A DNA stretch of 64,000 nucleotides from Pseudomonas fluorescens NCIMB 11764. Lineage in GTDB: Bacteria > Pseudomonadota > Gammaproteobacteria > Pseudomonadales > Pseudomonadaceae. The stretch covers positions 6,282,001 through 6,346,000 of the forward strand of contig NZ_CP010945.1 of assembly GCF_000293885.2 (NCBI RefSeq). The letters run 5' to 3'. Shown here in pieces: positions 19,711 through 40,326 of this stretch. Within the stretch, counting starts at the first letter, position 1. The number at the start of each line of letters is the position of its first letter. The position numbers and the translations under genes were made by a program. Under the pieces are notes generated by a model. The model searched no databases, was not told the DNA's origin, and saw only the letters and a list, made by a program, of their open reading frames with translations.

Positions 19711-20763
19711 ATGTACACCGCCATCGGATACGCCGCTCAATCAGCCACCACTCCCCTCGCCCCCATGAAATTCGAGCGCCGCAGCCCCCGCGCCGACGAC
19801 GTTGCGATCGACATTCTCTATTGCGGCGTCTGCCATTCCGACATCCACCAGGCACGCAACGAGTGGGGCATTGCCGTTTACCCGCTGATGCCCGGTCACG
19901 AGATCGTAGGCAAAGTGACCGCCATCGGTGCGAACGTAACCCGACATCAAGTCGGCGACTTGGTCGGCGTCGGCTGCATGGTCGATTCCTGCCGCAGCTG
20001 CGAAGCTTGCCAGGCCAACCTCGAGCAATATTGCCTCGAAGGTCCGACCATGACCTACGCCACACCCGACCGAGTGGATGGCAGCAACACCATGGGCGGC
20101 TATTCCGACAGCATCGTCGTCAGTGAACACTTCGTCGTGCGCATTCCGGAAAAGCTCGATCTGGCCAGCGCCGCGCCGATTCTCTGCGCCGGCATCACCA
20201 CCTACTCGCCGCTCAAACACTACGGCGTCAAGGCCGGCGACAAGGTCGGGATTCTAGGCATGGGCGGCCTCGGCCACATGGGTATCAAGTTTGCCAAGGC
20301 GATGGGCGCGGAAGTGACGCTGTTCACCCGTTCGGCAAGCAAGGCTGAAGAAGGTCGTCGCCAGGGTGCGGACCATGTGATCGTGTCCACCGACATCGGG
20401 CAGATGAAGGCAGCAGCAGGCCATTTCGACTTTCTGCTGGACACCATTCCGGTGCAGCACGACCTCAATCCCTACCTCGACACGCTACGTTTCGACGGCG
20501 TGCACATTCTGGTCGGGCTGATCGAACCGGTCGATCCAGCGGTCCACGCCGGCAAACTGGTGATGAGCCGTCGCGTACTGGCCGGCTCGCTGATCGGCGG
20601 CATCGCCGAAACCCAGGAAGTGCTGGATTTCTGCGCCGAGCACAACATCACCTGCGACATCGAAATGCTCGACATCCGCCAGATCAACGAGGCTTACGCC
20701 CGCATGATTGCCGGTGACGTGAAGTACCGTTTCGTCATCGACATGGCGACGCTGAAGGTCTAA
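19711..20763 (+). CDS. Zinc-dependent NAD(P) alcohol dehydrogenase, YahK/AdhC type
   Basis: A 350-residue medium-chain dehydrogenase. The catalytic zinc ligands are in CGVCHSDIH and PGHE. The structural zinc site is CRSCEACQANLEQYC. The cofactor loop is GILGMGGLGHMG. Relatives reduce a broad range of aldehydes with NADPH. It diverges from the AraC-type gene, which probably controls it. Its stop overlaps the stop of the convergent iclR gene by 4 bases. Confidence 0.88.
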   Translation: MYTAIGYAAQSATTPLAPMKFERRSPRADDVAIDILYCGVCHSDIHQARNEWGIAVYPLMPGHEIVGKVTAIGANVTRHQVGDLVGVGCMVDSCRSCEACQANLEQYCLEGPTMTYATPDRVDGSNTMGGYSDSIVVSEHFVVRIPEKLDLASAAPILCAGITTYSPLKHYGVKAGDKVGILGMGGLGHMGIKFAKAMGAEVTLFTRSASKAEEGRRQGADHVIVSTDIGQMKAAAGHFDFLLDTIPVQHDLNPYLDTLRFDGVHILVGLIEPVDPAVHAGKLVMSRRVLAGSLIGGIAETQEVLDFCAEHNITCDIEMLDIRQINEAYARMIAGDVKYRFVIDMATLKV

Positions 20764-21563
20764 ACCTTCGCACCCAGTTCTGCCGAAAGCCGGGCCGTGA
20801 CCCCTTTGATCAGGGGAATCAGCTCGGCCATTTTTTCCAGCGGCATGTACGGCACGGTGCTGGCGATGCTGATGCCGGCAACGATGCGCTTGCTGGCATC
20901 ACGAATCGGTGCCGCCACGCAGCGGATCGACGGTTCGTTATCTTCCAGATCGAAGGCGTAGCCGCCCGCCACGTACTCGACCATGCGCTGCTGAAACTGC
21001 TCCCAGGATTGCTCCGGGTGCTGCGGCCAGAACTGATTTTTCCCACCCGCAGGCAAACTGACTTCGTACAGCCGTTGCCATTCTTCCTGCGTGTCATCGA
21101 GCATCAGGGCCTTGCCGATCCCGGTGCGCGCCAACGGCATGCGATGGCCGACCCGCGAGCGCATTTCCGGGCCATTGCGCCCCGGATTCTTGTGCAGGTA
21201 CAGGACCTCGTCGCCCTCGCGAATCGCCAGGTGGATGGTGTCGCCGGTCAACGCCGACAACTCATCCAGATATGGCCCGGCCAACGTCACCAGCGGCAAT
21301 TCCTCGCGAGCCTGAAAACCCAACTCAATCAACTTCGGCCCCAACAGATACCCGACTTGCGGCACCACGCGCAGATAACGCTCGTCCACCAGGCAACTGG
21401 CCAGACGATGGGTGGTGCTGCGCGTCGTGCCGATCAGCCGGGCGATTTCCTTGAGATCGCGGGCGCCACTGGCCACGGCCTGAACCACACCCAGACCGCG
21501 AAGCAATGTCTGGGTGCCGGTCGGCGCGGCGTCCTTGGCGATTTTTGGGGCGTCTTCCTGCAT
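20760..21563 (-). CDS. IclR-family regulator linked to the dgo operon
   Basis: A 267-residue regulator. Residues about 18-80 form the IclR winged helix (LKEIARLIGTTRSTTHRLASCL). The rest is the effector-binding domain (GDTIHLAIREGDEVLYLHKNPG, YAFDLEDNEPSIRCVAAPI). It lies 60 bases after dgoT on the same strand and is probably the last gene of, or follows, the dgo operon. It is a candidate for binding the palindrome at the dgoK and SDR promoters. The DgoR-like FCD regulator at 39573 is the competing candidate. Confidence 0.85.
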   Translation of the reverse strand: MQEDAPKIAKDAAPTGTQTLLRGLGVVQAVASGARDLKEIARLIGTTRSTTHRLASCLVDERYLRVVPQVGYLLGPKLIELGFQAREELPLVTLAGPYLDELSALTGDTIHLAIREGDEVLYLHKNPGRNGPEMRSRVGHRMPLARTGIGKALMLDDTQEEWQRLYEVSLPAGGKNQFWPQHPEQSWEQFQQRMVEYVAGGYAFDLEDNEPSIRCVAAPIRDASKRIVAGISIASTVPYMPLEKMAELIPLIKGVTARLSAELGAKV

Positions 21564-21623: not shown

Positions 21624-22934
21624 CTACAACTTGATACGCTCAACCTTCCCGACCAGCAGAATGTAGGAAAGCGCACCGATCAACGCTAGAACCGAGATGT
21701 AGGTAATCGCCGGGGCGAACGAATCACCGGTGGCGAGGAAACCGATGACAATCGGTGTGGTGATCGCCGACAGGTTGCCGATGAAATTAAACACGCCGCC
21801 GGTCAGCCCCAACAACCGTGCCGGTGCCAGCGTTGAGACCAGCGACCAAGTGATCGAAGCCAGACCATTGCCGAAGAAGGCCAGTGCGAGGAAGGCAATT
21901 ACCAGCGGCGTCGACTCGACGAAGTTGGCGCCAATGATCGAGGTGGAAATCAGCAAGCCGCCAATGATCGGCAACTTGCGAGCGAAACCCACCGTGTACC
22001 CGCGGCGGATCAGGAAGTCGGAGAAAAACCCGGAACAGAGCACGCCGACGAAAGCCGCGAGAAACGGCAGCGACGCCAACAGGCCGGACTTGATGAAGTC
22101 CATGCCGCGGTATTTCACCAGGTAGGTCGGGAACCACGTCAGGAAAAACCACAACGTCGAGTTGAGGCAGAACTGACCGAGGTAGATGCCCCACAACTTG
22201 CGTTTGGTCAGCACGATGCCAAGGTCGGTCCAGCTGAATTTAGCCTTGACCTTCGCTTGCTCAGCCTGGATATCCACCAGCCCGCCGCCTTCGCGAATCA
22301 GCTCGATTTCAGCGTCATTGGCACCTTTGAAATCCCGTGGTTCGCGATACACCAAGTACCAGATCACCGCCCAGAGAATGCCCACCGCGCCGGTGCTGAC
22401 AAACACCATGTGCCAGCCAAACTCATGCTGCAACCACGCGAGTACCGGGGTAAGGAACGCCAGGCCAACGAACTGGCCGGAGGTGTAGAAACCAATGGCT
22501 GTGGCGCGTTCGCGTTCGGGAAACCAGGTAGTGACCACGCGGCTATTGATCGGATACGCCGGGGCTTCCAGGGCACCGACTGCCATGCGCAACACGAACA
22601 GCGCGATGAAGCTGGCGGCGAAACCGAGCATCACCGTGGCGATCGACCACAGCAGCAACGCGACGCTGTAGAGAATGCGCGGCGGGACGCGATCCACCAG
22701 CCAACCGCCGGGGATCTGCATGGCGGCGTAGGTCCAGCCGAACGCCGAGAAAATCAGCCCGACGTGGATCGGGTCGATGCCCAGTTCGCTGGTCAGCGCC
22801 GGGGCGGCGATGGACAGGTTGCTGCGGTCCAGGTAGTTGATCACCACGGTGATGAACAGCAGGACCATGATGAAAAAACGCTTGCGGCTGGGCGCCACCA
22901 ACGACGCCTGCCCGGTGAGGGTTTGCGGTTGCAT
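21624..22934 (-). CDS. dgoT: MFS transporter, D-galactonate type
   Basis: A 436-residue major-facilitator protein of the anion:cation symporter group with twelve predicted membrane segments. Typical signatures are INYLDRSNLSIAAP in helix 1, WLVDRVPPR in the first cytoplasmic loop and RMAVGALEAPAYP. The position directly after dgoD in a dgoK-A-D operon makes D-galactonate the likely substrate. Hexuronate or glucarate permeases look alike, so the substrate call depends on context. Confidence 0.85.
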   Translation of the reverse strand: MQPQTLTGQASLVAPSRKRFFIMVLLFITVVINYLDRSNLSIAAPALTSELGIDPIHVGLIFSAFGWTYAAMQIPGGWLVDRVPPRILYSVALLLWSIATVMLGFAASFIALFVLRMAVGALEAPAYPINSRVVTTWFPERERATAIGFYTSGQFVGLAFLTPVLAWLQHEFGWHMVFVSTGAVGILWAVIWYLVYREPRDFKGANDAEIELIREGGGLVDIQAEQAKVKAKFSWTDLGIVLTKRKLWGIYLGQFCLNSTLWFFLTWFPTYLVKYRGMDFIKSGLLASLPFLAAFVGVLCSGFFSDFLIRRGYTVGFARKLPIIGGLLISTSIIGANFVESTPLVIAFLALAFFGNGLASITWSLVSTLAPARLLGLTGGVFNFIGNLSAITTPIVIGFLATGDSFAPAITYISVLALIGALSYILLVGKVERIKL

Positions 22935-23125: not shown

Positions 23126-24274
23126 TCACCACTCGGCAAAACTGCCATCGGCATGCCGCCAGATCGGGTTGCGCCAGCGGTGCCCGACCGCCGCGCGTTC
23201 GATCACGTACTCCTCGTTGATCTCGATGCCCAGGCCCGGACCATTCGGAATCTTCACGAAGCCTTTGTCGTAATCGAACACCCGCGGATCCTTGACGTAA
23301 TCCAGCAGGTCGTTGCTCTCGTTGTAGTGAATGCCCAGGCTCTGCTCCTGGATGAACGCGTTGTAGCAAACCGCATCCAGTTGCAGACACGCCGCGAGGG
23401 CAATCGGGCCCAGCGGGCAATGCAGCGCCAGCGCGACGTCGTAGGCTTCGGCCATGTTGGCGATCTTGCGGGTTTCGGTGATGCCGCCAGCGTGAGAAGC
23501 ATCGGGCTGGATGATGTCGACGTAACCTTCGCTGAGCACGCGCTTGAAATCCCAGCGCGAGAACAGGCGCTCACCCAGGGCGATCGGCGTGCTGGTCAGC
23601 GGCGCCAGTTCTTTCAGCGCTTCGTAGTTTTCGCTGAGCACCGGTTCTTCGATGAACATCAGCTTGTACGGATCGAGCTCCTTCATCAGCACCTTGGCCA
23701 TAGGCTTGTGCACCCGGCCATGGAAGTCCACGCCGATGCCGACGTTCGGCCCGACCGCGTCACGCACGGCTGCGACGTTGGCCAGGGCGAGGTCGACTTT
23801 CTCGAAGGAATCGAGGAATTGCAGCTCTTCGGTGCCGTTCATTTTCACCGCAGTGAAACCACGCTCCACCGCCTCTTTCGCTGCACGCGCGGTGTCTGCC
23901 GGACGGTCACCGCCGATCCACGAATAGACACGAATCTTGTCCCGCACCTGACCACCGAGCAGATCGCTGACCGACACACCCAACGCCTTGCCCTTGATGT
24001 CCCACAACGCCTGATCGATACCGGCCAGGGCACTCATGTGGATCGCGCCGCCCCGGTAGAAGCCGCCGCGGTACAGCACGGTCCAGATGTCTTCGATGTT
24101 GCGTGGGTCTTTGCCGATCAGGTAGTCGGATAATTCTTCAACGGCCGCTGCCACGGTGTGGGCACGGCCTTCGACCACGGGCTCGCCCCAACCGGTCACG
24201 CCCTCGTCGGTTTCGACCTTGAGGAAGCACCAGCGCGGCGGAACGATGAAAGTGGTGAGTTTGGTGATTTTCAT
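23126..24274 (-). CDS. dgoD: D-galactonate dehydratase
   Basis: A 382-residue enolase-superfamily enzyme that converts D-galactonate to 2-keto-3-deoxy-D-galactonate. Recognisable segments are [15 protein letters not shown], the lid loop [14 protein letters not shown], the metal-site stretch GVDFHGR, IEEPV, and SHAGGITE followed by [14 protein letters not shown]. The length equals that of known DgoD. The start at 24274 follows an AGAGAG-rich site; the reading from 24316 is not needed. Confidence 0.93.
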
Positions 24275-24323
24275 CTCTTCTCTCTCTCTTGTTAGATGCA
24301 GCGCGCTCGGCGCCAAAAAAGTC

Positions 24324-24944
24324 TTAACGCAGAGCGTTCCATGCAGCGACGTAGGCTTTGGCGTTGGACGCCACCTGCTCCGGCGTCATGCCCGGTTTGA
24401 ACAGCCCGGACCCGAGACCGAAGCCTTTGACGCCGGCGTCGATAAACACCTGCATATTCTCCGGGGTGATCCCGCCCACCGGCGCCAGAATGGTTCCGGC
24501 GGGCAACACCGCCAGCCAGGCTTTTACAACCGCCGGCCCCATTTGCTCGGCCGGAAACATCTTCAGCACATCCGCCCCTTCGGCCAGTGCGGCGAAAGCT
24601 TCGGTCGGTGTCGCAACGCCCGGCGACAGGAACAGCCCCGCCGCTTTCGCTGCACGAAGCACCTTGGGATCGCTGTGGGGCATGACGATCACCTGCCCGC
24701 CGGCGGCTTTCACTTGCTCGACCTGCTCCGGCGTCAGCACCGTGCCGGCACCGATCAGGCAATCGGCGGGCAAAGTACTGCGCAGGATGCGGATGCTTTC
24801 GTACGGTTCGGGGGAATTGAGCGGCACTTCGATGACGCGAAATCCGGCTGCGTAAAGGACTTCTCCGATAGCCGCCGCTTCCTGCGGGCGCAGGCCGCGC
24901 AGGATTGCGATCAGGCCGTTTTGCGCCAGGGCTTGCTTGAGCAT
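24324..24944 (-). CDS. dgoA: 2-dehydro-3-deoxy-6-phosphogalactonate aldolase
   Basis: A 206-residue class I aldolase of the KDPG/KDPGal family that splits KDPGal into pyruvate and glyceraldehyde 3-phosphate. Motifs are [36 protein letters not shown] and [10 protein letters not shown] family member without its own dehydratase fusion, it sits between dgoK and dgoD with 19 and 49 bases to them, supporting one operon. Confidence 0.93.
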
Positions 24945-24963: not shown

Positions 24964-25956
24964 TTAACGGGATGGATGTGGGGTGACGAGTCCGGCAGCG
25001 AGCGCCAACTGCCACAGCCCGCGTTCGGTGGCGTGTTCGGCCAGCGTCACGCGAGCAAAACCGCAGGCGTCGAGGGCCCGGCTGTAGCGGGCACACAGTT
25101 GTGAGTTACCGATGAGGATGATTGCCGGCAGATGGACGCTGTTGCGCCGACGCCGCTGAACAGTGGCCAGCGCCGACAGCTCATGACCGATCAATAGGCC
25201 GGACAGATAGTCCGGTTGCGCGCTGCCGCTCAACTCGCCGGTCAGCCCGAGGCTGCGGGCGCTGAACAGCGTCGACAACGGGCCGACCTCGCCGTCCACC
25301 GACAGGGCCACTTGCACACCGCGGTCGAACGCGTCGCCATCGAAGGATGCGCCGCGCTGCTGAGTGCGTCCCAGAATGCTGTGTTCACTGAGCACGGCGA
25401 AGACTTCACCGGTCATGAAGGTATCGAAATGCACGATGCAGCCGTCGGCCACTTCCACCCATTTCGAATGACTGCCCGGCAGGCCGATCAACAGATCGCT
25501 GCCCGCCCCGCTCGGCAGGTTTTGCAGCACGCCGAGTACCTGGGTTTCTTCACCACGCATCACGTTCGGCAGCCGCGAACGTTGAATCACGCCCGGCACG
25601 ATGTGCACATCGACACCGCGAAGACTGCGAATGGTTTGTAGGGAAGTTCCGAGATTGGCGACGTTCGCCGGTGTATCGCGGTAGGCCGCTTCGCGCCAGC
25701 CCTGCGCGCTGCCAACCATACCGCAGGCAATCACCGGCAAAGCGGGTTGTTCATCGAGCCAGTCACCGCAAGCCTCGTCAAAGGCCAGTTCAAAACCGTC
25801 TGTGCATACCTGACCGTTAATGATTCGCGGCGTCCGGGGCAGTTGCATGATCCCCGATGACAGCGAACGCTGTTCGAGCACCTGGCCACCCGCGGCGAGT
25901 TTGTAAGCACGTAATGAGGTTGTCCCCCAATCGAGCGCGATCAATTGCGCCAGCAT
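24964..25956 (-). CDS. dgoK: 2-dehydro-3-deoxygalactonokinase
   Basis: A 330-residue sugar-acid kinase that phosphorylates KDGal to KDPGal. Signs are the N-terminal ALDWGTTSLRAY phosphate motif, IACGMVGSAQGW, LIGLPGSHSKWV and the C-terminal GNSQLCARYSRAL. The start at 25956 (MLAQLIALDWG) is preceded by CAGGTGAAGCG. The first gene of the dgo operon, it is driven by the promoter at 25988-26058. Confidence 0.92.
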   Translation of the reverse strand: MLAQLIALDWGTTSLRAYKLAAGGQVLEQRSLSSGIMQLPRTPRIINGQVCTDGFELAFDEACGDWLDEQPALPVIACGMVGSAQGWREAAYRDTPANVANLGTSLQTIRSLRGVDVHIVPGVIQRSRLPNVMRGEETQVLGVLQNLPSGAGSDLLIGLPGSHSKWVEVADGCIVHFDTFMTGEVFAVLSEHSILGRTQQRGASFDGDAFDRGVQVALSVDGEVGPLSTLFSARSLGLTGELSGSAQPDYLSGLLIGHELSALATVQRRRRNSVHLPAIILIGNSQLCARYSRALDACGFARVTLAEHATERGLWQLALAAGLVTPHPSR

Positions 25957-25987
25957 CGCTTCACCTGTTTTGTTTATTGGCAGTGAG

Positions 25988-26058
25988 TGAGCTGGACTAT
26001 AAACCCGAAAGCGGGAAAATCTCAATATATAAATATACATCCCATATTTTGGGATTCT
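25988..26058 (-). promoter_or_regulatory. dgo operon promoter with upstream palindrome
   Basis: On the minus strand there is a -35 TTGAGA (26020-26025), an 18-bp spacer and a -10 TATAGT (25996-26001). Just upstream lie TATATATT-rich DNA and ATCCCA-N5-TGGGAT (26039-26055). The same arrangement, with the same spacer length, is found before the SDR gene at 38504-38571. A site just upstream of -35 fits an activator. Confidence 0.75.
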
Positions 26059-29471: not shown

Positions 29472-30401
29472 TCAGCCGCAGAATGTTTTGCTGATCAGTG
29501 CATCCACCTCATCCGCCCCCGGCGAAGTCGCCGGCCCCCAGCGAGTCACTGCGAGTGCCGCCGCCGCATTCGCCCGCCGCGCCGCCTCGCCCGCCGACAG
29601 CCCTTGCGCCAACCCAGCCACAAATACCCCGGCGTGCGCATCGCCCGCGCCATTGCTGTCCACCGCCTCGACCTCGAAACCCGGCACAGGCTGACGCTCG
29701 CCATGCTGACTGATCCAGCAACCTTGGGGCCCATCGCGAACCACCATCAGCACCTCGGCGGGCAGATAATCGGTCAACCGATCCAGCGCCTCCCCGATGT
29801 CCGACGCCCCGGTAAACCGCAGCGCTTCGACACTGTTGCTGGTCCAAATATCGATGCGCGGCAACAAGGCCTGCATCAACGGCGCATCCGGTGACTCCAC
29901 CAACGGGCCCGGATCGAACACCACGTTAATCCCGGCCGGCAACGCCAGCACCCAATCCACCAGCGCCTGAGCCTTGCCGACATGCAGCAGGCTGTAGCCG
30001 CTGACGTAGACATAATCGCCCGCCTCGGCGGGCACACTCGCCAGGTCCTCGGCAGTCACTTCGCCTTCGGCGCCAATGTAGGAAACGAAACTGCGCTCGG
30101 CCGAGGCGTCGGTGATCGCCACGCACAATCCGGTATCGCGCTCCGCGCTGTGAGCAATGCCTATGTGGATGCCTTCAGCCTTCATCGCCTCCCGCGCCAG
30201 ATCACCGAAACGGCCGGTGCCATGCCGGCCGAGGTAAACCACCGGCAAACCATTACGCTGCGCCGCAGCCATCACATTGAAGCCGCCGCCCGCTTCGAAA
30301 CTGGCGGACTGCGCCAGTACATCGCCGCCGGGCTGCGGCAGTTTATCCACGGCCATGACCAGGTCGATGATGACCTGGCCGGTGTGCAACAGCTTAGGCA
30401 T
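29472..30401 (-). CDS. PfkB-family carbohydrate kinase (YegV-like)
   Basis: A 309-residue ribokinase-like enzyme. It has the N-terminal GGGFNVMAAAQRNG motif and the C-terminal DSNGAGDAHAGVFVAGL, where the Asp in GAGD is the catalytic base. It starts at 30401, overlapping the end of the permease gene by 8 bases. In the E. coli yegTUVW set the kinase YegV is the counterpart. It likely phosphorylates a sugar or nucleoside released inside the cell. Confidence 0.85.
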   Translation of the reverse strand: MPKLLHTGQVIIDLVMAVDKLPQPGGDVLAQSASFEAGGGFNVMAAAQRNGLPVVYLGRHGTGRFGDLAREAMKAEGIHIGIAHSAERDTGLCVAITDASAERSFVSYIGAEGEVTAEDLASVPAEAGDYVYVSGYSLLHVGKAQALVDWVLALPAGINVVFDPGPLVESPDAPLMQALLPRIDIWTSNSVEALRFTGASDIGEALDRLTDYLPAEVLMVVRDGPQGCWISQHGERQPVPGFEVEAVDSNGAGDAHAGVFVAGLAQGLSAGEAARRANAAAALAVTRWGPATSPGADEVDALISKTFCG

Positions 30402-31860
30402 GAGCATTCTCGAGCAATGCGGCGCGGCGATCCCTGGCGCCACCGAGTACGAAGTAAATCCCGCCAGCGACCAGGAACGTCACGATCCAGCCGAGGCCGT
30501 TGTGGCCCAGCCACGAATCGGAGAGGAACCCGCGGAACCAGACGGTTTGTTCGGTGGTGCCGATGGTGGTGAAGCTGAAACCCAGCACGATCGCCACCGC
30601 CCACGCACCGAAGGCGCGCCACTCGACGCCGCCGCGGTACCAGTAGGCGCTGCTCGGGCTGACGTCCAGCAGATCCTTGGGGCTGTAGTAATGACGGTGG
30701 ATCAGGTCGACGACGAAGATCCCGACCCACGCCGTGATCGGCACGGCCAGCAAGGAAATGAAGGTAATGAACGGGCCGTAGAAACTGTCGGCGATCAGCA
30801 TGAAGTAAATCGAACCGGCGAAGATCGCAACGATGTCGACCACCACGGCGTAGACGCGCTTGACCTTGAGGCCCAGGGTCAACGTGGTCAAACCGGCGGA
30901 GTACACCGACAGGTTGTTCGACAGCAGCAAGCCGCCGAAGGCGGTGATCAGGTAAGGCACGGCCATCCAGGTCGGCAGCATGTCGCGGATCGCAATGATC
31001 GGGTCAGTGGCCGACGCCAGGTCATTGTTACCCACCGACAGCAAGCCGCCGAGGGTGATCAGCAACACCAGCGGAATCCCCGCACCGAATGCGGCCGAGG
31101 CCACCAGGCGCACGGCTTTGACGCTGCGATGCTGATAGCGCGACATGTCGGCACCGGCGTTGGCCCAACCGATCCCGGTGCCGGCGGCCATGGTGCCGAC
31201 GCCGATGATCATTGCGCTAAGCGGTGCAGGCGTGGCGTTGAACACGGCACTCCAGTCGATGGTGGCGCAAAGGAAACCGCCGACCAGAATGTTCAGCGCG
31301 CCGAACACGTAGGTCGCCCACTTCTGAATCACCAGCAACGTCGCGTGCCCAAGGCCAGACACCGACAAAGTCAGCAGCACGAAAATCGCGATGAACACCA
31401 GGGTCAACATCGGCGCACTTTTGGCCTCCACCGGAGAGCCGAACAGGATCGAGCACAACGACAACAACACGAAAGCGGCGGTGGTGGTATTGACGGTTTC
31501 CCAACCCAGCCGCGACATCAACGAAACCAGGGTCGGGCCGATATTGCCGCGCACACCAAAGATCGCCCGCGACAGCGTCAGGCTCGGTGCGCGACCACGG
31601 CGACCGGCGATGGAAATGATCCCGACCACCGCGAAGGATCCGGCCGCGCCGAGGATCGCGACGATGATCGCCTGCCAGATCGCCAACCCGCGAAACGCTA
31701 CCAGCGTGGCGCCCAGCGGCAGGCCGAGGATGGAAATGTTGGCAGCGAACCAGACCCAGAACAGTTGCAGCGGATGACCGTTGCACTCTGCTTCCGGCAC
31801 CGGTTCGATGCCACGGGTTTCCAGTTGCCCGGCACTTTGCCCGGCGTTCGATGAACTCAT
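30394..31860 (-). CDS. NCS1-family purine/cytosine-type permease
   Basis: A 488-residue permease with about twelve membrane segments and NCS1 features (LFWVWFAANISILGLPLGA, then AIFGVRGNIGPTLVSLMSRLGW). NCS1 proteins import nucleobases, hydantoins, allantoin and sometimes nucleosides. The start MSSSNAGQSAGQ at 31860 follows an AGGAGCATTTCAC site. The kinase gene overlaps its end, so import and phosphorylation are coupled. Confidence 0.85.
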   Translation of the reverse strand: MSSSNAGQSAGQLETRGIEPVPEAECNGHPLQLFWVWFAANISILGLPLGATLVAFRGLAIWQAIIVAILGAAGSFAVVGIISIAGRRGRAPSLTLSRAIFGVRGNIGPTLVSLMSRLGWETVNTTTAAFVLLSLCSILFGSPVEAKSAPMLTLVFIAIFVLLTLSVSGLGHATLLVIQKWATYVFGALNILVGGFLCATIDWSAVFNATPAPLSAMIIGVGTMAAGTGIGWANAGADMSRYQHRSVKAVRLVASAAFGAGIPLVLLITLGGLLSVGNNDLASATDPIIAIRDMLPTWMAVPYLITAFGGLLLSNNLSVYSAGLTTLTLGLKVKRVYAVVVDIVAIFAGSIYFMLIADSFYGPFITFISLLAVPITAWVGIFVVDLIHRHYYSPKDLLDVSPSSAYWYRGGVEWRAFGAWAVAIVLGFSFTTIGTTEQTVWFRGFLSDSWLGHNGLGWIVTFLVAGGIYFVLGGARDRRAALLENAHA

Positions 31861-31984
31861 GTGAAATGCTCCTGTTGCCTTTGTTGTGGTTATGGGCAAT
31901 GACGGAAGACGAAAACAACAGCCCGGCTGTCCTGGCCAAGTCAGTGCGATCCATTGCGGGTGAAAAATTCAAACAAGCGGCGCA

Positions 31985-32010
31985 GCCATCGCCGGCAAGC
32001 CAGCGATGGC
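31985..32010. repeat. Single REP-like hairpin in an operon gap
   Basis: GCCATCGC and GCGATGGC pair around CGGCAAGCCA in the 160-base gap between the ADP-ribosylglycohydrolase and permease genes. It could attenuate or stabilise the message. Confidence 0.5.
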
Positions 32011-32020
32011 GCCAGTCCGG

Positions 32021-33019
32021 TCAGCGAAGAGCCAACAGGCCTTTTACCAACGGTTCCAGCTCCAACGAGTTAACGGCTTTGACCTTGTCGATCATCCCGA
32101 CAGGCCAGCTCTCAAGCCCCAGACAGGCCCCCAGCATGGCCCCCAGAATCGCCGCGATGGTGTCTGTGTCGCCGCCAAGACTGGCCGCCATGCACACAGC
32201 TTCGAAGGCATTCATCTCACCGATGGCCACTTGTTGGGCCAGGGCAAACGAAACCACCACCGACTCCTGTGACGCCACCGAAGTGCCGATCACGTCGTAC
32301 ATCAAGTCCGCCAGCAGCGCCTTGTCACTGTCGACGCTGATCGTCCGCGCCCAACTGATGCGCGAGGCGATGCGTCCGCCCGCGACCCAGTGGCCGTGAC
32401 TTTCCGCTTGCAGAGCGATCTGCTGGCCGAGGTTCAGCGCTTCGCCCAGGTCCATGCCGTTGATGCCGGCGGACACCACCGCCGCCACCGCCGCCGCGCT
32501 GGAAATGCCCAGCGTGGTGTTGTGAGTGACCTGGCAGGCCTGCACCACGGCGCTGATGAAACGCTCGGGATCGCTGACATCCGCCGAAATCCCGACCGGC
32601 GTAATGCGCATCGCCGCGCCGTTGGTGGTGCCATAGCGTCCCGCTTCTTCCGGCGACTGGCCGGCGAGAATCATCTCGATCGCCCGTTTGGTCGATGGGC
32701 CGAGCAAATCCTGTGAGTCCTTGGCCTGCATCGCGGCTTCCCATTCGATCAACCGCTGGGCCAGCACCGACGGTTCGATCTTGCCTTTGCCGTCGATCAA
32801 CAACTGACCGACCAGAATGGCCTGTTCGGTGTCGTCGGTGATCGAGCCTTTGGGCATGTTGGCCGCGATGGGTTGATCGGGACCAGCGTCTTGCAGATCG
32901 GTGATGTCGCCAAAGCGCGCCTTGATTTCAGCGCGGCTCAGGGATTGGGTCGGCATGCCCAGCGCATCGCCCAGGGCCAGTCCGTAAAACGCGCCCAGGG
33001 CACGATTGAACGCGGTCAT
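32021..33019 (-). CDS. ADP-ribosylglycohydrolase-family protein (YegU-like)
   Basis: A 332-residue DraG-fold hydrolase with both metal-binding signatures: SITDDTEQA near residue 59 and GGDTDTIAAI near residue 280. The fold cleaves N-glycosidic bonds to ribose. In this setting (permease, kinase, GntR regulator) the substrate is more likely a small N-glycoside or nucleoside than an ADP-ribosylated protein. Its start overlaps the stop of the GntR gene by 4 bases. Confidence 0.87.
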   Translation of the reverse strand: MTAFNRALGAFYGLALGDALGMPTQSLSRAEIKARFGDITDLQDAGPDQPIAANMPKGSITDDTEQAILVGQLLIDGKGKIEPSVLAQRLIEWEAAMQAKDSQDLLGPSTKRAIEMILAGQSPEEAGRYGTTNGAAMRITPVGISADVSDPERFISAVVQACQVTHNTTLGISSAAAVAAVVSAGINGMDLGEALNLGQQIALQAESHGHWVAGGRIASRISWARTISVDSDKALLADLMYDVIGTSVASQESVVVSFALAQQVAIGEMNAFEAVCMAASLGGDTDTIAAILGAMLGACLGLESWPVGMIDKVKAVNSLELEPLVKGLLALR

Positions 33020-33729
33020 TGCGGGTTTCCAAATTGCAGGTGCAGGCGAAAGTGCACCGGATCAAGCAGGCTTTCGACTTGCTCCATGAAGCGGTTTTGC
33101 CGGTCGTATGTGGTGCGCAAGGCTTTGAGGAAAACCGTACCGACCGGGCGGCCGAGCAGTTCGGCGTCTTCGGCGTTCAAGGGTTCGGCGCCGATCCATT
33201 GATCGCCGCGCTCGCCGATGTAGCCGTACGCCGCCAGGGTGATGGTCAGGGAATTGTCGATCAGGCCGACACGCGGCAGGCTTTCCAGGCCTCCGGTGGC
33301 GGGCATCAATGAGCGTTCGAGGGAAACCAGCTTGCCGTCGGTGGAACGACGTCGGCGGTCGAGGGTGATGAACTGGTCGGTGCCGAAACGCGGAAGCAGG
33401 TCAGGACGGGTTACCGCCTCGAGCCGCAGCACTTCGGTATTGATCAGCGCCCCGTTGTCGGCCAAGGCCTGCGCCCAGCCGCTGCGCTGATCAAGCACCA
33501 CGCCGTCGAAGGTGACGATGGAACCGACACCGCTTTGCGTCGCGATGTAGTGGCGCCGTTTCAACTCGGCCAGGGCTTCACGCAGCGTGCCGCGGCTGAC
33601 TTTGAATTCTTGAGCCAACTGATGCTCGCCCGGCAGTAAAAAACCGTCCTCCAAGAGGCCGCTTTCAATGCGCCGGATGAGTTCGTCGACCACCCGTTGT
33701 TTCTTGTCAAATCGTACCTGTCTAATCAT
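33016..33729 (-). CDS. GntR-family regulator with UTRA domain (YegW-like)
   Basis: A 237-residue HutC-type regulator. A winged helix (LLPGEHQLAQEFKVSRGTLREALAEL within residues 25-70) is followed by a UTRA ligand domain. I start at MIRQVRFDKKQR (33729). It is the first gene of the yegTUVW-like operon and probably its own repressor. GTAC occurs on both sides of the start (33713 and 33729 regions), a possible half-site pair. Confidence 0.85.
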   Translation of the reverse strand: MIRQVRFDKKQRVVDELIRRIESGLLEDGFLLPGEHQLAQEFKVSRGTLREALAELKRRHYIATQSGVGSIVTFDGVVLDQRSGWAQALADNGALINTEVLRLEAVTRPDLLPRFGTDQFITLDRRRRSTDGKLVSLERSLMPATGGLESLPRVGLIDNSLTITLAAYGYIGERGDQWIGAEPLNAEDAELLGRPVGTVFLKALRTTYDRQNRFMEQVESLLDPVHFRLHLQFGNPQ

Positions 33730-33803
33730 GTACAAACTGATAACCGAAACGGGTTGTAGCAGGCAAGAAATATTTAGGGGAAGTGACGGAAGGAATGCAT
33801 AAC

Positions 33804-33833
33804 CGTGGCGAGGGAGCAAGCTCCCTCGCCACG
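33804..33833. repeat. Single perfect REP hairpin after araH
   Basis: CGTGGCGAGGGAGC-AA-GCTCCCTCGCCACG is a perfect 14-bp stem with a two-base loop, 11 bases after the araH stop on the minus strand. It is well placed to protect or end the araFGH message. Confidence 0.85.
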
Positions 33834-33844
33834 AGAGACGGGTG

Positions 33845-34816
33845 TCAGCGTTGTTTGAGGCGGTCGATGACCACGGCCAACAACAGGATCGAACCGCGAA
33901 TTACATACTGATAAAACGTATCGATGTTCTTCAGGTTCATCGCGTTCTCGATGATTGCCAGAATCAACACCCCCGCGATCACATGCCGGATCATGCCGAT
34001 CCCGCCACTCAGCGACACCCCGCCGAGTACGCAAGCCGAGATCACCGTCAGCTCGAAACCCTGGCCGATCATCGGCTGTCCCGAGGTCATACGCGAAGCC
34101 AGGATCACCCCGGCCAATGCCCCGATCACGCCATGCACGGCGAAGATGATGATCTTGGTCCGGTCAACGTTGACCCCGGCGAGCAGCGCCGCTTCCTGGT
34201 TGCCGCCGATGGCCATGGTGTTGCGCCCGTAGGTGGTGTAGTTCAGCAGCCAGCCGAAAAACAGGAAGCAGACGATGGTGATCAGAATCGGCACCGGCAC
34301 CCCAAACAACTGGCCGTTACCGAAGACGAAGAACGACTCTTGCGACACGCCCACTGCTTTGCCATTGGCAAAAATGTAGGCCAGACCGCGAACGATCTGC
34401 ATGGTCGCCAGCGTGGTGATCAACGCATTGACCCGCAACTTGGCGATCACGATCCCGTTGATCAGCCCGACGATCAGCCCCATGAACAGCGCCGCCACCA
34501 CGCCGAGAAAAACGCTGTCGGTGTCGCGCATCACCACTGCCGCCACCACGCCGGCGCAGGCAATCACCGAGCCCACCGACAAGTCGAAATGCCCGGACGC
34601 CAGGCAATACAACATGGTGCACGCTGCGATCCCGGTGGTCGAAATCGCCAGGCCCAGCCCGCGCATGTTCAGTGGTGAAAGGAAGTTGTCGATCAGCAAA
34701 GTGCAGAGCACAAAGATCCCGACAGCCGCCAGCAGCATGACCCAGTCATCGAGAAAGCGCCGCAGGTCCAGAGGTTTGCGCTGGGTGGGCAGAGCGTTGT
34801 TTTGGGTTGTCATCAT
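33845..34816 (-). CDS. araH: Sugar ABC transporter permease, AraH type
   Basis: A 323-residue inner-membrane permease of the ribose/arabinose/galactose class with eight to ten membrane segments (WVMLLAAVGIFVLCTLLI, VGSVIACAGVVAAVVM, GVSLSGGIGMIRHVIAGVLI). The start ATG 34816 lies behind GAGAGG; a GTG at 34822 and ATG at 34813 are alternatives. It forms the channel for AraG and AraF. Nine bases separate it from araG. Confidence 0.9.
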   Translation of the reverse strand: MMTTQNNALPTQRKPLDLRRFLDDWVMLLAAVGIFVLCTLLIDNFLSPLNMRGLGLAISTTGIAACTMLYCLASGHFDLSVGSVIACAGVVAAVVMRDTDSVFLGVVAALFMGLIVGLINGIVIAKLRVNALITTLATMQIVRGLAYIFANGKAVGVSQESFFVFGNGQLFGVPVPILITIVCFLFFGWLLNYTTYGRNTMAIGGNQEAALLAGVNVDRTKIIIFAVHGVIGALAGVILASRMTSGQPMIGQGFELTVISACVLGGVSLSGGIGMIRHVIAGVLILAIIENAMNLKNIDTFYQYVIRGSILLLAVVIDRLKQR

Positions 34817-34825
34817 AGTCACCTC

Positions 34826-36370
34826 TCAGTTCGCCACGCCGTCAGCGCGTTGGCGCGGCAAAGCCAGTTGCAGCAGGTTGGATTCGTTGGCCTCGTCACG
34901 GGACAGTTCGCCGCGCATCGCCCCTTCGCAGAGCACCAGGATGCGGTCGGAAATACCCATCACTTCCATCAGGTCGCTGGACACCACGATCACCGCGATA
35001 CCGCTTTCAGCGAGGTTATGGATGATCTGGTAGATCTCGGCTTTCGCACCGATGTCGATGCCCCGAGTCGGTTCGTCGAGCAGCAGGATTTTCATCGGCA
35101 TCGACAGCCAGCGGCCGAGAATCGCCTTCTGCTGATTGCCGCCGGACAGGTACATGATTTTCTGTTCAGCGCTCGGTGTTTTTACTTTCAGCGCCTTGAT
35201 CTGCTTGTCGGCGTTGCCTTTCTCCCACAGTCCGCGCAACAGGCAACCGAAGGTGGAGTGGGCGCCGCGTGCGCTGATGTTGATGTTCTCGGCGACGCTG
35301 GAGAGCGGCATGATGCCCTCCTTCTTGCGGTCTTCGGGGCACAGCAGAATCCCCGCCGCAATCGCATCCCGGGGGGAGCGCAGTTTCAGTTCATGCCCGC
35401 GCAATTCCAGGCGCCCGGCGGTGTTGCGCTCAAGGCCGCTGAGTATGCGGAACAGTTCGGTACGACCGGCACCGACCAGGCCGAACAACCCCAGAATCTC
35501 GCCTTTGTGCGCGTCGAAACTCACCGGCTCACGCAAGCCCGGCCCGAGCAGACCGTCGACCCTCAGCGCCACGGCGCCTCGCTTGCGCGGGCGATAATCG
35601 TAGATGTCCTGAATGTCGCGACCGACCATGCACGTGACCAACTGATCATGGGTCAGCTCGCTCATGTCCTCGAAGGTGCGTACGTAGCGGCCGTCCTTGA
35701 ACACCGTCACCGCGTTACAGATGCGGAACACTTCTTCCATGCGATGGGAGACGTAGAGCACCACTTTGCCTTCGTCGCGCAGGCGCCCGATGATCGCCAT
35801 CAAGCGATCGATCTCCCGCGCCGAAAGGCTGCTGGTCGGCTCGTCGAATGCGATCACATGCGCGCCACGGGACAACGCCTTGGCGATTTCCACCAGTTGC
35901 CGTTGCCCCAGGGACAGACGCCCGACTTTCTCTTGCGGGTCGATTTCATCGGCCAGCCCTTTGAGGCAGGCCAACGCTTGCTGACGCAGTGCGCCGCGAT
36001 TGATCAGGCCGAAACTGGCGGGCAGATGACCGAGGAACAGGTTTTCCGCCACGGTCATTTCCGGGACCAGGTGCAACTCTTGATGGATCACCGCCACCTT
36101 GTTGCCGATGCTGTCGGCGGTGGACTTGAAGACCATCGTTCGCTCGCCGATCTGCAGGTCACCGCTGCTCGGCGTATAGGCGCCGCCGAGGATCTTCAGC
36201 AACGTCGACTTGCCGGCACCGTTCTCGCCCATCAAGGCATGAACCTGTCCCGGATGGGCAACGAAGCTGATGCCGTCCAGCGCCTTCACCCCGGGAAAGG
36301 TCTTGCCGATCCCGTTGAAGCGCAGGCTGCCGCCGACGCTGTCGTGTTGTGTCTGTACTTGCGCGTGCAT
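34826..36370 (-). CDS. araG: Sugar ABC transporter ATP-binding protein, AraG type
   Basis: A 514-residue protein with two ABC domains. The first has Walker A GENGAGKST and signature LSLGQRQLVEIAKAL. The second has a degenerate Walker A, GLVGAGRTE, and signature LSGGNQQKAILGRWL. The double-domain layout is that of the arabinose/ribose/galactose importers. The start MHAQVQTQHDSVG at 36370 is chosen over 36427, which would leave only 7 bases to araF. Confidence 0.92.
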   Translation of the reverse strand: MHAQVQTQHDSVGGSLRFNGIGKTFPGVKALDGISFVAHPGQVHALMGENGAGKSTLLKILGGAYTPSSGDLQIGERTMVFKSTADSIGNKVAVIHQELHLVPEMTVAENLFLGHLPASFGLINRGALRQQALACLKGLADEIDPQEKVGRLSLGQRQLVEIAKALSRGAHVIAFDEPTSSLSAREIDRLMAIIGRLRDEGKVVLYVSHRMEEVFRICNAVTVFKDGRYVRTFEDMSELTHDQLVTCMVGRDIQDIYDYRPRKRGAVALRVDGLLGPGLREPVSFDAHKGEILGLFGLVGAGRTELFRILSGLERNTAGRLELRGHELKLRSPRDAIAAGILLCPEDRKKEGIMPLSSVAENINISARGAHSTFGCLLRGLWEKGNADKQIKALKVKTPSAEQKIMYLSGGNQQKAILGRWLSMPMKILLLDEPTRGIDIGAKAEIYQIIHNLAESGIAVIVVSSDLMEVMGISDRILVLCEGAMRGELSRDEANESNLLQLALPRQRADGVAN

Positions 36371-36434
36371 AACCCACCTCATCAACAGATCAGGCAACCC
36401 CGTCGCCAGGGCTGCCGATGAAATCAACCGCGCC

Positions 36435-37439
36435 TCAGTTCCAGAGGCCGATCTTTTCCAGTTCCTGCTTGAAGTTGTCGCGCGTGATCAGGGTCACGTC
36501 GTCCATGGCGGTGTATTTCGGCGGTTCTTTGCCGGTGGTGACCCACTCGTACATCATGCTCGCGGTGTTGTAGCCCTCGATGTGTGGGCTCGGCAGCATC
36601 GAACCGAAGAAGCCGCTGTTGGGCTTTTTCAGTTCGCCGATGGCGTCGGTGCCGTTGATGCCGATGCCAATCACGTTGGCGGCGGCAAAACCGGCACTCT
36701 CGGTAGCGCGCACGCCGCCCAGTACGGTGTTGTCGTTCATGCCACCGATGATCAGGTTTTTCGCCGCGCTCGGCAGTTTCACCAGCGCCGAGTTGGTGGC
36801 GTCCATGCTGCCCGGCACGTCTAGGGTTTTCAGCGCCGAAAACAGGATGTGGTCTTTCGGCATGCCGGCGTCTTCCAGCGCCTTGACCGAACCGTCGGTG
36901 CGCTTCTTGCCGGTGTCGAGTTCGTTGTAGGTGTTGATGACCGCGTAGGTGTCTTTCCAGTCCCAGCCGCGTTTTTTCGCTTCAGTGGCCATCGCCGCGC
37001 CCTGCTTCTGGCCGACTTCGAACGCTGCCATGCCCAGGTACGGGACGTCTTCCATGAACTTGCCGCTGGCATCGACAAAACGGTCATCCACGGCAATCAC
37101 TTTCAAACCGTTGAGCTTGGCTTTGGCCATGATCGCCGGACCGAGGGACACGTCCGGCGGGCAGATCACGAAACCCTTGGCGCCGTTGGCGGCCAGGCTG
37201 TCGATGGCGGAAAGGGTCTTCTCGCCGTCCGGTACGGCGATCTTGATGACTGTGAAGCCTTTCTCTTTGCCGGCCTTTTCGGCGAAGGCCCATTCGGTCT
37301 GGAACCAGGGCTCTTCCGCCTGCTTGACCAGAAAACCGATCTTCACTTCCTCGGCCGCCAGCAACGTACTGCTCAGGCTGACCGCGGTGACCGCCAAAGC
37401 GGCACAGCACAGGGAACGGATCCCACGACGACGATTCAT
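36435..37439 (-). CDS. araF: Sugar ABC transporter periplasmic binding protein, AraF type
   Basis: A 334-residue periplasmic protein. A signal peptide ends near SLSSTLLAAEE. The mature protein has a class-B sugar-binding fold (EVKIGFLVKQAEEPWFQTEW, GFVICPPDVSLGPA, NTYNELDTGKKR, GIGINGTDAIGELKK). E. coli AraF binds L-arabinose and also D-galactose, which matters here because of the linked galactonate genes. The operator-like palindrome at 37502 precedes it. Confidence 0.9.
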   Translation of the reverse strand: MNRRRGIRSLCCAALAVTAVSLSSTLLAAEEVKIGFLVKQAEEPWFQTEWAFAEKAGKEKGFTVIKIAVPDGEKTLSAIDSLAANGAKGFVICPPDVSLGPAIMAKAKLNGLKVIAVDDRFVDASGKFMEDVPYLGMAAFEVGQKQGAAMATEAKKRGWDWKDTYAVINTYNELDTGKKRTDGSVKALEDAGMPKDHILFSALKTLDVPGSMDATNSALVKLPSAAKNLIIGGMNDNTVLGGVRATESAGFAAANVIGIGINGTDAIGELKKPNSGFFGSMLPSPHIEGYNTASMMYEWVTTGKEPPKYTAMDDVTLITRDNFKQELEKIGLWN

Positions 37440-37554: not shown

Positions 37555-38373
37555 CTAGTCGTGATACATCACCGAGCGACCTCCATCGATAGTGATGCAC
37601 GATGCGTTGATAAAGGGCGCTTCGTCGCTGGCCAGGAAAACCGCAGTCATCGCCACTTCAATCGGCTGGCCGATGCGCCGCGGTGGATGCAGATCGAGAG
37701 CGCGTTGGCGCTCGGCGTGCGGGTCGGCAAAACCGTTCCAGTAATCGACGTTCAGTTGGGTTTCGATGTAGCCCGGTGCGATGGCGTTGACGCGAATGCC
37801 CTTCGGCGCATATTCGATGCCCAGCGCGCGGGTCAGGCCCAGCAGGCCGTGCTTGGCCACCGGGTATGGGAAGCAGCCCGGAATGATGTGCGTGGAATGG
37901 GTAGAGGCAATGTTGATGATGCTGCCGATGCCCTGCTCGATCATTTGCGGCAGCACCGCTTTACAGCCGAACCAGGCGCCGTCCAGGTCAATGGCGAAAC
38001 AACGACGCCAGTCTTCTTCGGTCATTTCCAGCGGATCGCGGAACACGTTGACCCCGGCGCAGTTGACCAGCACGTCGATGCGGCCGTGCAGGTCGACTGC
38101 CAGTCTGGCCATGGCGTGCAAGTCTTGCTGATTGGACACGTCAGCCTTTATCGCCTGAACATCAAACCCCTTGTCTCGCCAATGCGCCGCGACGTGTTCG
38201 ACTTTCTCACCCTGGATATCACTGATGATCAGCCTGGCCTGCTGGGAGGCGAAGGTCGCGACAATCGCCTCGCCAATGCCCTGAGCCGCGCCGGTCAGCA
38301 ACACGACCTTGTTTTTCAGGCGCTCACCCTTCGGTGGCTCGGGCACCGCTGGCAGGGAAAGAGGTTCACCCAT
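37555..38373 (-). CDS. SDR-family sugar dehydrogenase (galactose/arabinose 1-dehydrogenase candidate)
   Basis: A 272-residue short-chain dehydrogenase with TGAAQGIGEAI near residue 29, NCAG, the catalytic Ser in INIASTHSTH and the YxxxK as YPVAK. Between SMP-30 lactonase and araFGH it should oxidise the imported aldose to its lactone. SDR-type D-galactose dehydrogenases are known in rhizobia. Its promoter is a twin of the dgo promoter, which favours D-galactose, with L-arabinose as a structural analogue. AAGGAG lies 9 bases before ATG 38373. Confidence 0.8.
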   Translation of the reverse strand: MGEPLSLPAVPEPPKGERLKNKVVLLTGAAQGIGEAIVATFASQQARLIISDIQGEKVEHVAAHWRDKGFDVQAIKADVSNQQDLHAMARLAVDLHGRIDVLVNCAGVNVFRDPLEMTEEDWRRCFAIDLDGAWFGCKAVLPQMIEQGIGSIINIASTHSTHIIPGCFPYPVAKHGLLGLTRALGIEYAPKGIRVNAIAPGYIETQLNVDYWNGFADPHAERQRALDLHPPRRIGQPIEVAMTAVFLASDEAPFINASCITIDGGRSVMYHD

Positions 38374-38458
38374 GAATCAGAACTCCTTTTCGCGGGCACG
38401 ACAAAAACCGGGCATCTGTCGATGTCCGGCCAAAAAGCTTTGTGGAAAATAGCTGCAT
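38366..38458 (-). CDS. 30-codon upstream ORF overlapping the SDR start
   Basis: ATG 38458 is preceded by CAGGTGAAGTG, the same start context as dgoK. The frame runs 30 codons (MQLFSTKLFGRTSTDARFL and on) and stops at TGA 38366-38368, inside the SDR start ATGGGTGA. It could be a leader peptide that couples translation. Or it could be a chance frame left when the dgo-type promoter and start were copied here. Confidence 0.45.
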   Translation of the reverse strand: MQLFSTKLFGRTSTDARFLSCPRKGVLIHG

Positions 38459-38503
38459 CACTTCACCTGTTTTGTTTTTTTAAGTGTGAGTGCGTGTAAC
38501 TGA

Positions 38504-38571
38504 TGGAGCCGACTATAAACCCGACCGCCAAATAATCTCAATATATAATTTTACATCCCATATTTTGGGAT
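38504..38571 (-). promoter_or_regulatory. SDR promoter, twin of the dgo promoter
   Basis: Minus strand: -35 TTGAGA (38536-38541), 18-bp spacer, -10 TATAGT (38512-38517), and ATCCCA-N5-TGGGAT (38555-38571) upstream. Hexamers, spacer length, the GGGTTTATAGT context and the palindrome equal those before dgoK. The leader to the SDR start is about 130 bases and contains the small ORF. Confidence 0.75.
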
Positions 38572-39447
38572 CTAACCAGCAAATTTCGTACAGGTTTTTC
38601 CGGACACATCGACCTGAAGGGACAACACCGCCCCGTCCAGCGGATGGTTGAGCGGGCTCGCAGCGCTGGTGATGTAGAGGGTTTTCAAGTCCGGACCGCC
38701 AAACACACAACTGGTGGGGCGGCTGACCGGCAGCTCGATCACGCGATCGACCTGACCATCTGGCGTCAACCTGAGCAGGCAACTGCCGTCCCAGCGAGCA
38801 TTCCAAAGGTAACCCTCGGCATCCATCGCCGAGCCGTCGGGTCCGCCGCGTTCATGGGGGCCGAACCAGACTTGCGCGGGCTCGAGGCCGCCGTCGGTGC
38901 GAATGAAATGCTGATAGAGCGTGCCATCCAGGCTGTCGGCGAAATAAAGCGTGGTGGCGTCGTCACTCCATAACAACGTGTTGGGAATGCCCAATCCGCG
39001 AAGCAGCGGCGTGACCCGGGCATCGCGGTCAATTCGAAACAAGCCGCCGGACCGTCGCACGATGGGCAGGTCTTCGCCGTTTTCGCCGATGTTGTTCTGC
39101 ATGGTGCCGAGCCATAGCCGGCCCTGCGCATCGCAACGGGCTTCGTTGGCGCGATTGCCGGGTTGCGGGTCGGCGACGCAGCACAAGCTCAATCGTGGCT
39201 CAAGTCCCGGTGAATCGAGATCGAGCCGGTACACACCACTACTCAACGTCACCAGCGCATCGCCGCTTTCGCAGGGAATGAAGGCTGACACGTGCTCGGG
39301 CATCTGCCAGATTTGCACGTTGGCGCCGACCAGGCGCAACGCTTGTTTACCGGCAATATCCACCCAGTACAGCGCCTGCGTCGGCGCATCCCAGAAGGGG
39401 CCCTCGCCCAGGTGTGCACGGTGCTGGGTAACTGCGGTCCACTCCAT
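38572..39447 (-). CDS. SMP-30/gluconolactonase-family sugar lactonase
   Basis: A 291-residue six-bladed beta-propeller lactonase. The metal ligands are expected in LGEGPFWD (Glu), NRANEARCDAQGRLW (Asn), NTLLWSDDATTLYFADS (Asn/Asp) and DGSAMDAEGYLWNARW. It should open the galactono- or arabinono-lactone made by the SDR. Its stop touches the palindrome of the SDR promoter, so it is transcribed separately from, or reads through into, the SDR gene. Confidence 0.87.
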   Translation of the reverse strand: MEWTAVTQHRAHLGEGPFWDAPTQALYWVDIAGKQALRLVGANVQIWQMPEHVSAFIPCESGDALVTLSSGVYRLDLDSPGLEPRLSLCCVADPQPGNRANEARCDAQGRLWLGTMQNNIGENGEDLPIVRRSGGLFRIDRDARVTPLLRGLGIPNTLLWSDDATTLYFADSLDGTLYQHFIRTDGGLEPAQVWFGPHERGGPDGSAMDAEGYLWNARWDGSCLLRLTPDGQVDRVIELPVSRPTSCVFGGPDLKTLYITSAASPLNHPLDGAVLSLQVDVSGKTCTKFAG

Positions 39448-40289: not shown

Positions 40290-40326
40290 GGGCACCTCAA
40301 AGCCGTTCGCAATGGGTGCCCACGCT

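Follow-up and report, generated by a model that had tools for sequence, protein, structure and literature searches.

In the window, that is, the whole stretch of 64,000 nucleotides that was analysed, the genes of a galactonate (dgo) operon and those of a sugar dehydrogenase-ABC transporter operon were read from the same strand, together with two regulator genes:

20760-21563, minus strand: IclR-type regulator, proposed to bind the element described below (HTH_IclR PF09339 and IclR_C PF01614, above cut-offs)
21624-22934, minus strand: dgoT-like galactonate MFS transporter (TIGR00893 above cut-off)
23126-24316, minus strand: dgoD, galactonate dehydratase (NF010624 above cut-off)
24324-24944, minus strand: dgoA, KDPGal aldolase (NF006600 above cut-off)
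24964-25956, minus strand: dgoK, 2-keto-3-deoxygalactonokinase (PF05035, 7e-96 on the longer ORF 24964-26040; start taken from relatives)
33845-34822, minus strand: sugar ABC transporter permease
34826-36427, minus strand: sugar ABC transporter ATPase
36435-37439, minus strand: sugar-binding protein of the ABC transporter
37555-38373, minus strand: SDR dehydrogenase, candidate D-galactose 1-dehydrogenase (adh_short_C2)
38572-39447, minus strand: SMP-30 lactonase, candidate galactonolactonase (SGL, 2.3e-74), its end abutting the SDR operator
39573-40295, minus strand: FCD (GntR) regulator, which the element does not require (found at E<=1e-60 in 50 of the 149 genomes of the genus)

Profile matches indicated that the De Ley-Doudoroff set was complete for galactonate dehydratase, KDGal kinase and KDPGal aldolase. 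Shared control and gene order nominate the SDR and SMP-30 proteins as candidate galactose dehydrogenase and lactonase, the SMP-30 gene being found between dgoD and the SDR gene in two loci (L097 and L098) and the SDR gene being co-directional with the dgo genes behind one element in three genomes (G141, G006 and G044). A D-galactose dehydrogenase gene of fluorescens features in PMC6927180.

Each of the two operons was preceded by a promoter of the same layout, in which the hexamers were assigned from the sequence:

25957-25989, minus strand: inferred dgoK leader, conserved, its start placed 7 nt past the -10, with an A-rich block and AGGTGA ribosome-binding site
25996-26001, minus strand: -10 of dgoK, TATAGT, preceded by GGGTT and separated from the -35 by an 18-bp spacer
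26020-26025, minus strand: -35 of dgoK, TTGAGA
26020-26034 (centre 26027), minus strand: proposed operator site 2 of the dgoK promoter, degenerate, including the -35, 20 bp from site 1
26039-26055 (centre 26047), minus strand: palindrome, predicted IclR operator site 1 of the dgoK promoter (ATCCCATATTTTGGGAT on the plus strand)
38512-38517, minus strand: -10 of the SDR gene, TATAGT
38536-38541, minus strand: -35 of the SDR gene, TTGAGA
38536-38550 (centre 38543), minus strand: proposed operator site 2 of the SDR promoter, including the -35
38555-38571 (centre 38563), minus strand: palindrome, predicted IclR operator site 1 of the SDR promoter, an exact match

The earlier note had described an identical -35, 18-bp spacer, -10, palindrome and downstream segment at both promoters, and all of these were located on the minus strand. 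The downstream segment, TTCACCTGTTTTGTTT, was common to both leaders (25960-25975 and 38462-38477) and corresponded to the ribosome-binding region (AACAAAACAGGTGAAGYGATG); at the SDR locus it stood before a short upstream ORF, not before the SDR start. The promoter hexamers fitted the consensus at 10 of 12 positions, as scored for the SDR promoter, those of dgoK being identical. If transcription starts 7 nt past the -10, as placed above, the centre of site 1 would fall near position -58 and that of site 2 near -38, on top of the -35.

Across the single contig of 6,998,154 bases that makes up the genome, an exact copy of the palindrome occurred at two places only, 26039-26055 and 38555-38571, with four further places at one mismatch, and its reversed control matched one place at up to one mismatch. 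A composite of 27 bases, TATGGGA-N7-TTATATATTGAGA, was matched solely by the two promoters at up to three mismatches, and by no place in the genome when reversed. In the window, the palindrome taken alone at two mismatches was not significant (2 found against 2.0 expected). Since the exact palindrome and the composite were each limited to these two places, the likeness of the two promoters is not a matter of chance, as the earlier note had maintained.

The exact palindrome was found in 57 of 149 genomes of the genus, the window's own included, and its reversed control in 2; some of the 57 genomes had matches with G+C-rich centres that are apparently due to chance. A scan of GTDB contigs with the pattern TRTGGGA-N7-TTAYATATTGAGA returned at least 120 matching stretches, and, among the 80 for which titles were known, 79 were from Pseudomonas and one from 'gamma proteobacterium L18'. 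The next gene, among the 120 matches listed, was dgoK in 74, the SDR gene in 32 and a gene whose best match was the sugar-binding protein in 13, the last locus (L211) being broken off at the edge with the SDR leader visible. In 12 of those 13 loci the sugar-binding protein gene lay 918-953 bp downstream, which leaves space for an SDR gene first, and the SDR gene was indeed seen at the element in 7 of the 12; in the other (L270) the distance was 324 bp and the SDR gene was missing. Judging by these next genes, the element thus does not occur at many unrelated genes, an outcome that the earlier note had set against its own proposal: 119 of the 120 matches listed stood at dgoK or at the SDR operon.

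The conservation of the element was assessed in dgoK upstream regions, 121 of them distinct and drawn from 145 loci, anchored on the -35 block and taken where the dgoK match started no later than residue 6 and at least 180 upstream bases were available. The -35 block was TATTGAGA in 119 of these regions and differed by one or two bases in the remaining 2, each base of the TGGGA half was kept in 120-121 regions and those of the TCCC half in 106-121, and TTAYATATTGAGA showed at most two deviations per position. Unlike the operator half and the -35 block, the flanks and the spacer were variable in the regions inspected.

The element also followed the IclR gene. True dgoA (E below 1e-60) was present in 94 of the 149 genus genomes, and an IclR orthologue in 93 of these 94 and in none of the 55 genomes without dgoA, counts that are inflated and not independent, since linked genes are inherited together. 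In the sole dgoA genome without an intact IclR gene (G080), this gene was found in two pieces behind dgoT. The FCD gene, for which at most 18 candidates per genome were scored, was found in 50 of the 149 genomes, all among the 94 with dgoA, and was not found at E<=1e-60 in 44 of them; 8 of the 50 proteins were only 71-76% identical.

Because co-inheritance inflates such counts, gene order was also examined. The IclR gene lay behind dgoT in 19 of 40 stretches, 8 of the 40 ending before that point. In a second clade it was far from dgo or on another contig, G121, G059, G017 and G099 being examples with single-contig positions. There, in 11 of 20 stretches, and also in L288, it closed an SDR-sbp-abc-perm-IclR operon that likewise carried the composite promoter, and none of these 12 genomes carried the FCD gene at E<=1e-60. 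Among the other nine stretches, one kept the promoter and the ABC genes while the SDR gene was not found (L127, from G139), three were without the SDR operon (L122, L123 and L135), four ended at contig ends (L128, L130, L138 and L139) and in one the IclR gene lay about 10 kb behind dgoT (L141). In G044 (L099), a single element was followed by co-directional dgo, SDR, ABC and IclR genes, with no SMP-30 match, and in G141 and G006 the order dgoK-A-D-SMP30-SDR-sbp-abc-perm was co-directional with the IclR gene downstream; we infer from gene order that these arrays are single operons.

In the family at large, an IclR homologue (E<=1e-60) was present in 32 of 148 genomes, 20 of them outside the genus and with 50-54% identity, and the element, at up to two mismatches, in 33, with 31 genomes in common. 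The one IclR genome missed by the element search (G247) showed the element on inspection, and the genomes with the element and no IclR match were G162, where the match was poor, and G179, where the element preceded a degenerate IclR remnant. In all nine other-genus stretches that were read, the element stood directly before the IclR gene, which was the first of the dgo operon and was followed by dgoK and dgoA in nine and by dgoD and dgoT in seven. An element copy before the IclR gene was also found in three distant members of the genus (G260, G001 and G147), weak in the last two. Of 23 aligned IclR sequences, 22 had the recognition segment TRSTTHRL unchanged and one (L328) had SRSTTHRL; identity between genera was 66% in the recognition region, the whole HTH domain being no better kept (51%) than the C-terminal domain (50%). 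Two additional arrangements were observed: two divergent element copies at 8130-8290 of L320 (G189), the minus-strand one followed by a seemingly copied IclR start, and a further element at flipped coordinate 2992 of L321 (G200), some 8 kb ahead of its IclR-dgo operon.

As the element tracks the IclR gene, other genera included, it is very probable that one IclR-type regulator serves both promoters. In this respect, the proposal of a common regulator made in the earlier note agrees with the conservation of the element, the confinement of its matches to one pathway and its co-occurrence with the IclR gene, and the choice of the IclR protein at 20760 as the first candidate is borne out by its distribution (93/94 against 0/55) and by the adjacency of gene and element. 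The likeness could instead mean that the dgoK promoter was recently duplicated as DNA, with no common regulator behind it, and, as expected of a copied block, it does extend past the ribosome-binding site as far as the first codons; such an origin is nevertheless highly improbable, the operator half and the -35 block being nearly invariant in the 121 dgoK regions, flanks and spacer varying in the regions inspected, and the database matches listed being confined to one pathway. The FCD regulator at 39573, the second candidate of the earlier note, is encoded upstream of the SMP-30 and SDR genes, and E. coli DgoR, of the same family, represses dgo by binding two closely spaced inverted repeats that overlap its promoter (PMC12288454). 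However, the FCD gene was not present wherever the site occurs: it was found in 50 of the 94 dgo genomes and not found at E<=1e-60 in 44, including all 12 with the SDR-sbp-abc-perm-IclR operon, and the element persisted without it. The FCD protein was hence rejected as the regulator of the element, and that it binds the palindrome is highly improbable. The strongest evidence that the IclR protein, not the FCD protein, would read the element comes from the other genera, in which the element precedes IclR-dgo operons.

The palindrome itself resembles an IclR operator in part. Its core fitted the group 1 motif YCRY-W3-RYGR with an average of 10.2 of 11 positions, whereas, relative to the fuller group 1 operator GKTYCRY-W3-4-RYGRAMC, its third and outer positions differed, the third T/A pair being C/G here. 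Suvorova and Gelfand (2021) described tandem sites 18-22 nt apart in 94 IclR orthologous groups (PMC8222616). In the promoters collected here, a second core match was found exactly 20 nt downstream, its score out of 11 being 9.0 for the Pseudomonas promoters and 10.0 for the other set (which includes loci of G260, a genus member) against a mean of 5.4, with the collecting pattern fixing much of site 2 in both sets. When symmetry was tested, the +20 offset came second for the other-genera set but fell outside the top offsets for Pseudomonas. Since the peak at +20 is thus partly built in by the collecting pattern, more weight was placed on the near-invariance of the -35 block and on a base change in the left half of site 2: among 45 element places, 20 were of the window's type, 24 had TC in place of the TT of the pattern, and one, the poor match of G162, was left out of the TC group. 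This left half is degenerate in Pseudomonas, where about 9 of 11 core positions fit, and better in the other genera, where TC represents a shift towards the IclR motif. Because a half-site 20 bp downstream of the palindrome includes the -35, the IclR protein probably covers the -35 at both promoters.

Shared by two promoters, unique to them in this genome, conserved, and tied to the IclR gene and to these pathway genes, the element would place the De Ley-Doudoroff galactose pathway in a regulon of two operons under the IclR-family protein encoded at 20760-21563. In the proposed mechanism, one IclR dimer would bind TCCCATA-N-TATGGGA, the palindrome whose centre lies some 58 bp ahead of the inferred start, and another would probably occupy the weaker site 20 bp downstream, over the -35 hexamer, the protein acting as a presumed tetramer. 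Repression of both operons would last until the regulator binds a pathway intermediate, for example galactonate or KDGal, whereupon dgoK-A-D-T and the SDR-plus-ABC operon would be expressed together, the IclR gene being the last of the dgo operon. The nearest NCBIfam model for the protein was KdgR, far below its cut-off, so that a 2-keto-3-deoxy sugar acid or galactonate as effector is only a guess.

Repression is somewhat favoured over activation because the promoter is near consensus (10/12), the -35 lies inside site 2 and E. coli DgoR offers a precedent. The converse mode, in which an effector-bound dimer at about -58 would recruit RNA polymerase, is a serious though less likely alternative. 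MhpR, an IclR-type activator, has its palindrome centred near -58. A strong palindrome lies upstream of the -35 at both promoters, which had led the earlier note to suggest an activator, and IclR-family activators exist (PMC8222616); the position of the palindrome stands, but the argument drawn from it is weakened by the second IclR-like half-site, which includes the -35. Moreover, the hexamers already fit the consensus at 10 of 12 positions, and conservation extends through the -35 and the bases preceding it. When the SBW25 dgoKAD genes were placed with their native promoter in P. putida KT2440, which may be without the IclR gene, going by its co-occurrence with dgoA, slow growth on galactose was obtained after a 52-h lag (PMC6927180); the growth speaks against a required activator, whereas the lag also fits a missing one. 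Repression by the IclR protein therefore remains the preferred reading, at a modest advantage.

Several features were noted in the SDR leader:

38366-38458, minus strand: upstream ORF of 30 codons plus stop, the stop overlapping the SDR start
38403-38429, minus strand: hairpin-like CCGG.CATC-N4-GATG.CCGG followed by a T run, in exact form in 43 of 49 distinct leaders
38472-38479, minus strand: AAAAACAA, a match to AAnAAnAA, the CA motif of Hfq/Crc, lying 14-21 nt ahead of the upstream ORF

In the second clade, the shared leader runs straight into the SDR gene, which starts with MQAQ or similar (compare the MQAQ of many dgoK), and in most of the window's clade it opens an upstream ORF of 26-56 codons, L073 being an exception with a direct SDR start. 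Among 49 distinct leaders, a set drawn apart from loci with the -35 block TATATATATTGAGA (e.g. L071, L080-L082 and L152) and from L160 and L161, whose start region falls outside the pattern, the upstream ORF stopped at -3 relative to the SDR start in 15, at +8 in 33 and at +16 in 1. In 34 of the 49 its frame stayed open as far as the last codon ahead of the SDR start, the other 15 stopping one codon earlier, and the other two frames were open in 22 and 21, compared with 27% of shuffled leaders. Values of pN and pS were 0.117 and 0.136 for 85-nt leaders, 0.225 and 0.280 for 156-nt, 0.098 and 0.152 for 157-nt and 0.061 and 0.027 for 160-nt leaders; these values gave no clear signal of selection on the peptide. 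The hairpin-like repeat was a single copy in the genome, besides two matches with three mismatches; the fold of the window's SDR leader RNA was not significant (z -0.05), and a terminator scan of 38200-38700 found none.

The CA motif AAnAAnAA was taken as defined for Hfq/Crc in PMC3480352, where AAAAACAA stands just before the start codon of bkdA1 of P. putida, a position like that of the putative motif here. Of the 121 distinct dgoK leaders, which are related to one another, 63 had the exact motif, where shuffling predicts 5, and the window's own dgoK leader had it only with one mismatch, by eye. These features would be accommodated if the dgoK block from promoter to first codons, comprising operator, -35, -10, CA motif, ribosome-binding site and first codons, had been copied before the SDR-ABC operon as the latter left the dgo operon. 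The copied start would have become the SDR start (MQAQ/MQPQ) in one clade and a short upstream ORF in most of the window's clade, with translation of this ORF through the conserved hairpin coupled to that of the SDR gene. Taken as one joint claim, this history is speculative and rather unlikely; were it true, Hfq/Crc at the upstream ORF would gate sugar uptake and oxidation after the IclR protein opens the promoter.

The closest counterpart by function is the E. coli dgo operon, in which the same pathway genes are controlled by a pathway-specific regulator, the GntR/FadR-type DgoR. As for DgoR (PMC12288454), two closely spaced sites, here predicted, overlap the promoter; in contrast, the regulator here belongs to the IclR family, the operator sequence is another, and control would extend to a further operon, which encodes a sugar dehydrogenase and an ABC transporter. 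The IclR protein probably fills the place that DgoR holds in E. coli, and the galactose pathway of many pseudomonads would gain a named candidate switch and operator. With the IclR group 1 regulons (PMC8222616) the system would share the core YCRY-W3-RYGR, the spacing of 18-22 nt and the control of its own and one or two further operons; neither galactonate nor dgo occurs in the main text of that paper.

No IclR regulator of dgo in Pseudomonas was found in the open literature searched. The gene partnership has a precedent in the alphaproteobacterium Roseobacter litoralis. In the putative galactose cluster 1 of this species, dgoA and dgoK are annotated next to genes for a short chain dehydrogenase, a putative gluconolactonase, an ABC transporter and a regulator of the IclR family (PMC3141670). 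Likened here by description, this annotated gene list, in which no operator or regulation was seen, is the nearest published precedent. A two-operon IclR galactose regulon would therefore be new in Pseudomonas within the literature searched and ordinary in kind, a well-supported reading of the sequences compared.

Some minor observations concerned the genes themselves. The genes at 29472-33819, between the two loci and in the same direction, encode a PfkB kinase, an NCS1 permease, an ADP-ribosylglycohydrolase and a UTRA regulator, and look like a separate nucleoside-type cluster. In L143 (G107) the SDR gene was truncated with the promoter and ABC genes kept, as they also were in L270 and L127, and in L072 (G129) the block from permease to FCD was missing, with the dgoK element and the IclR gene retained. 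Finally, dgoA of G034 (C1:5225448-5226064) is probably broken, because it was matched in two overlapping pieces with a stop inside.
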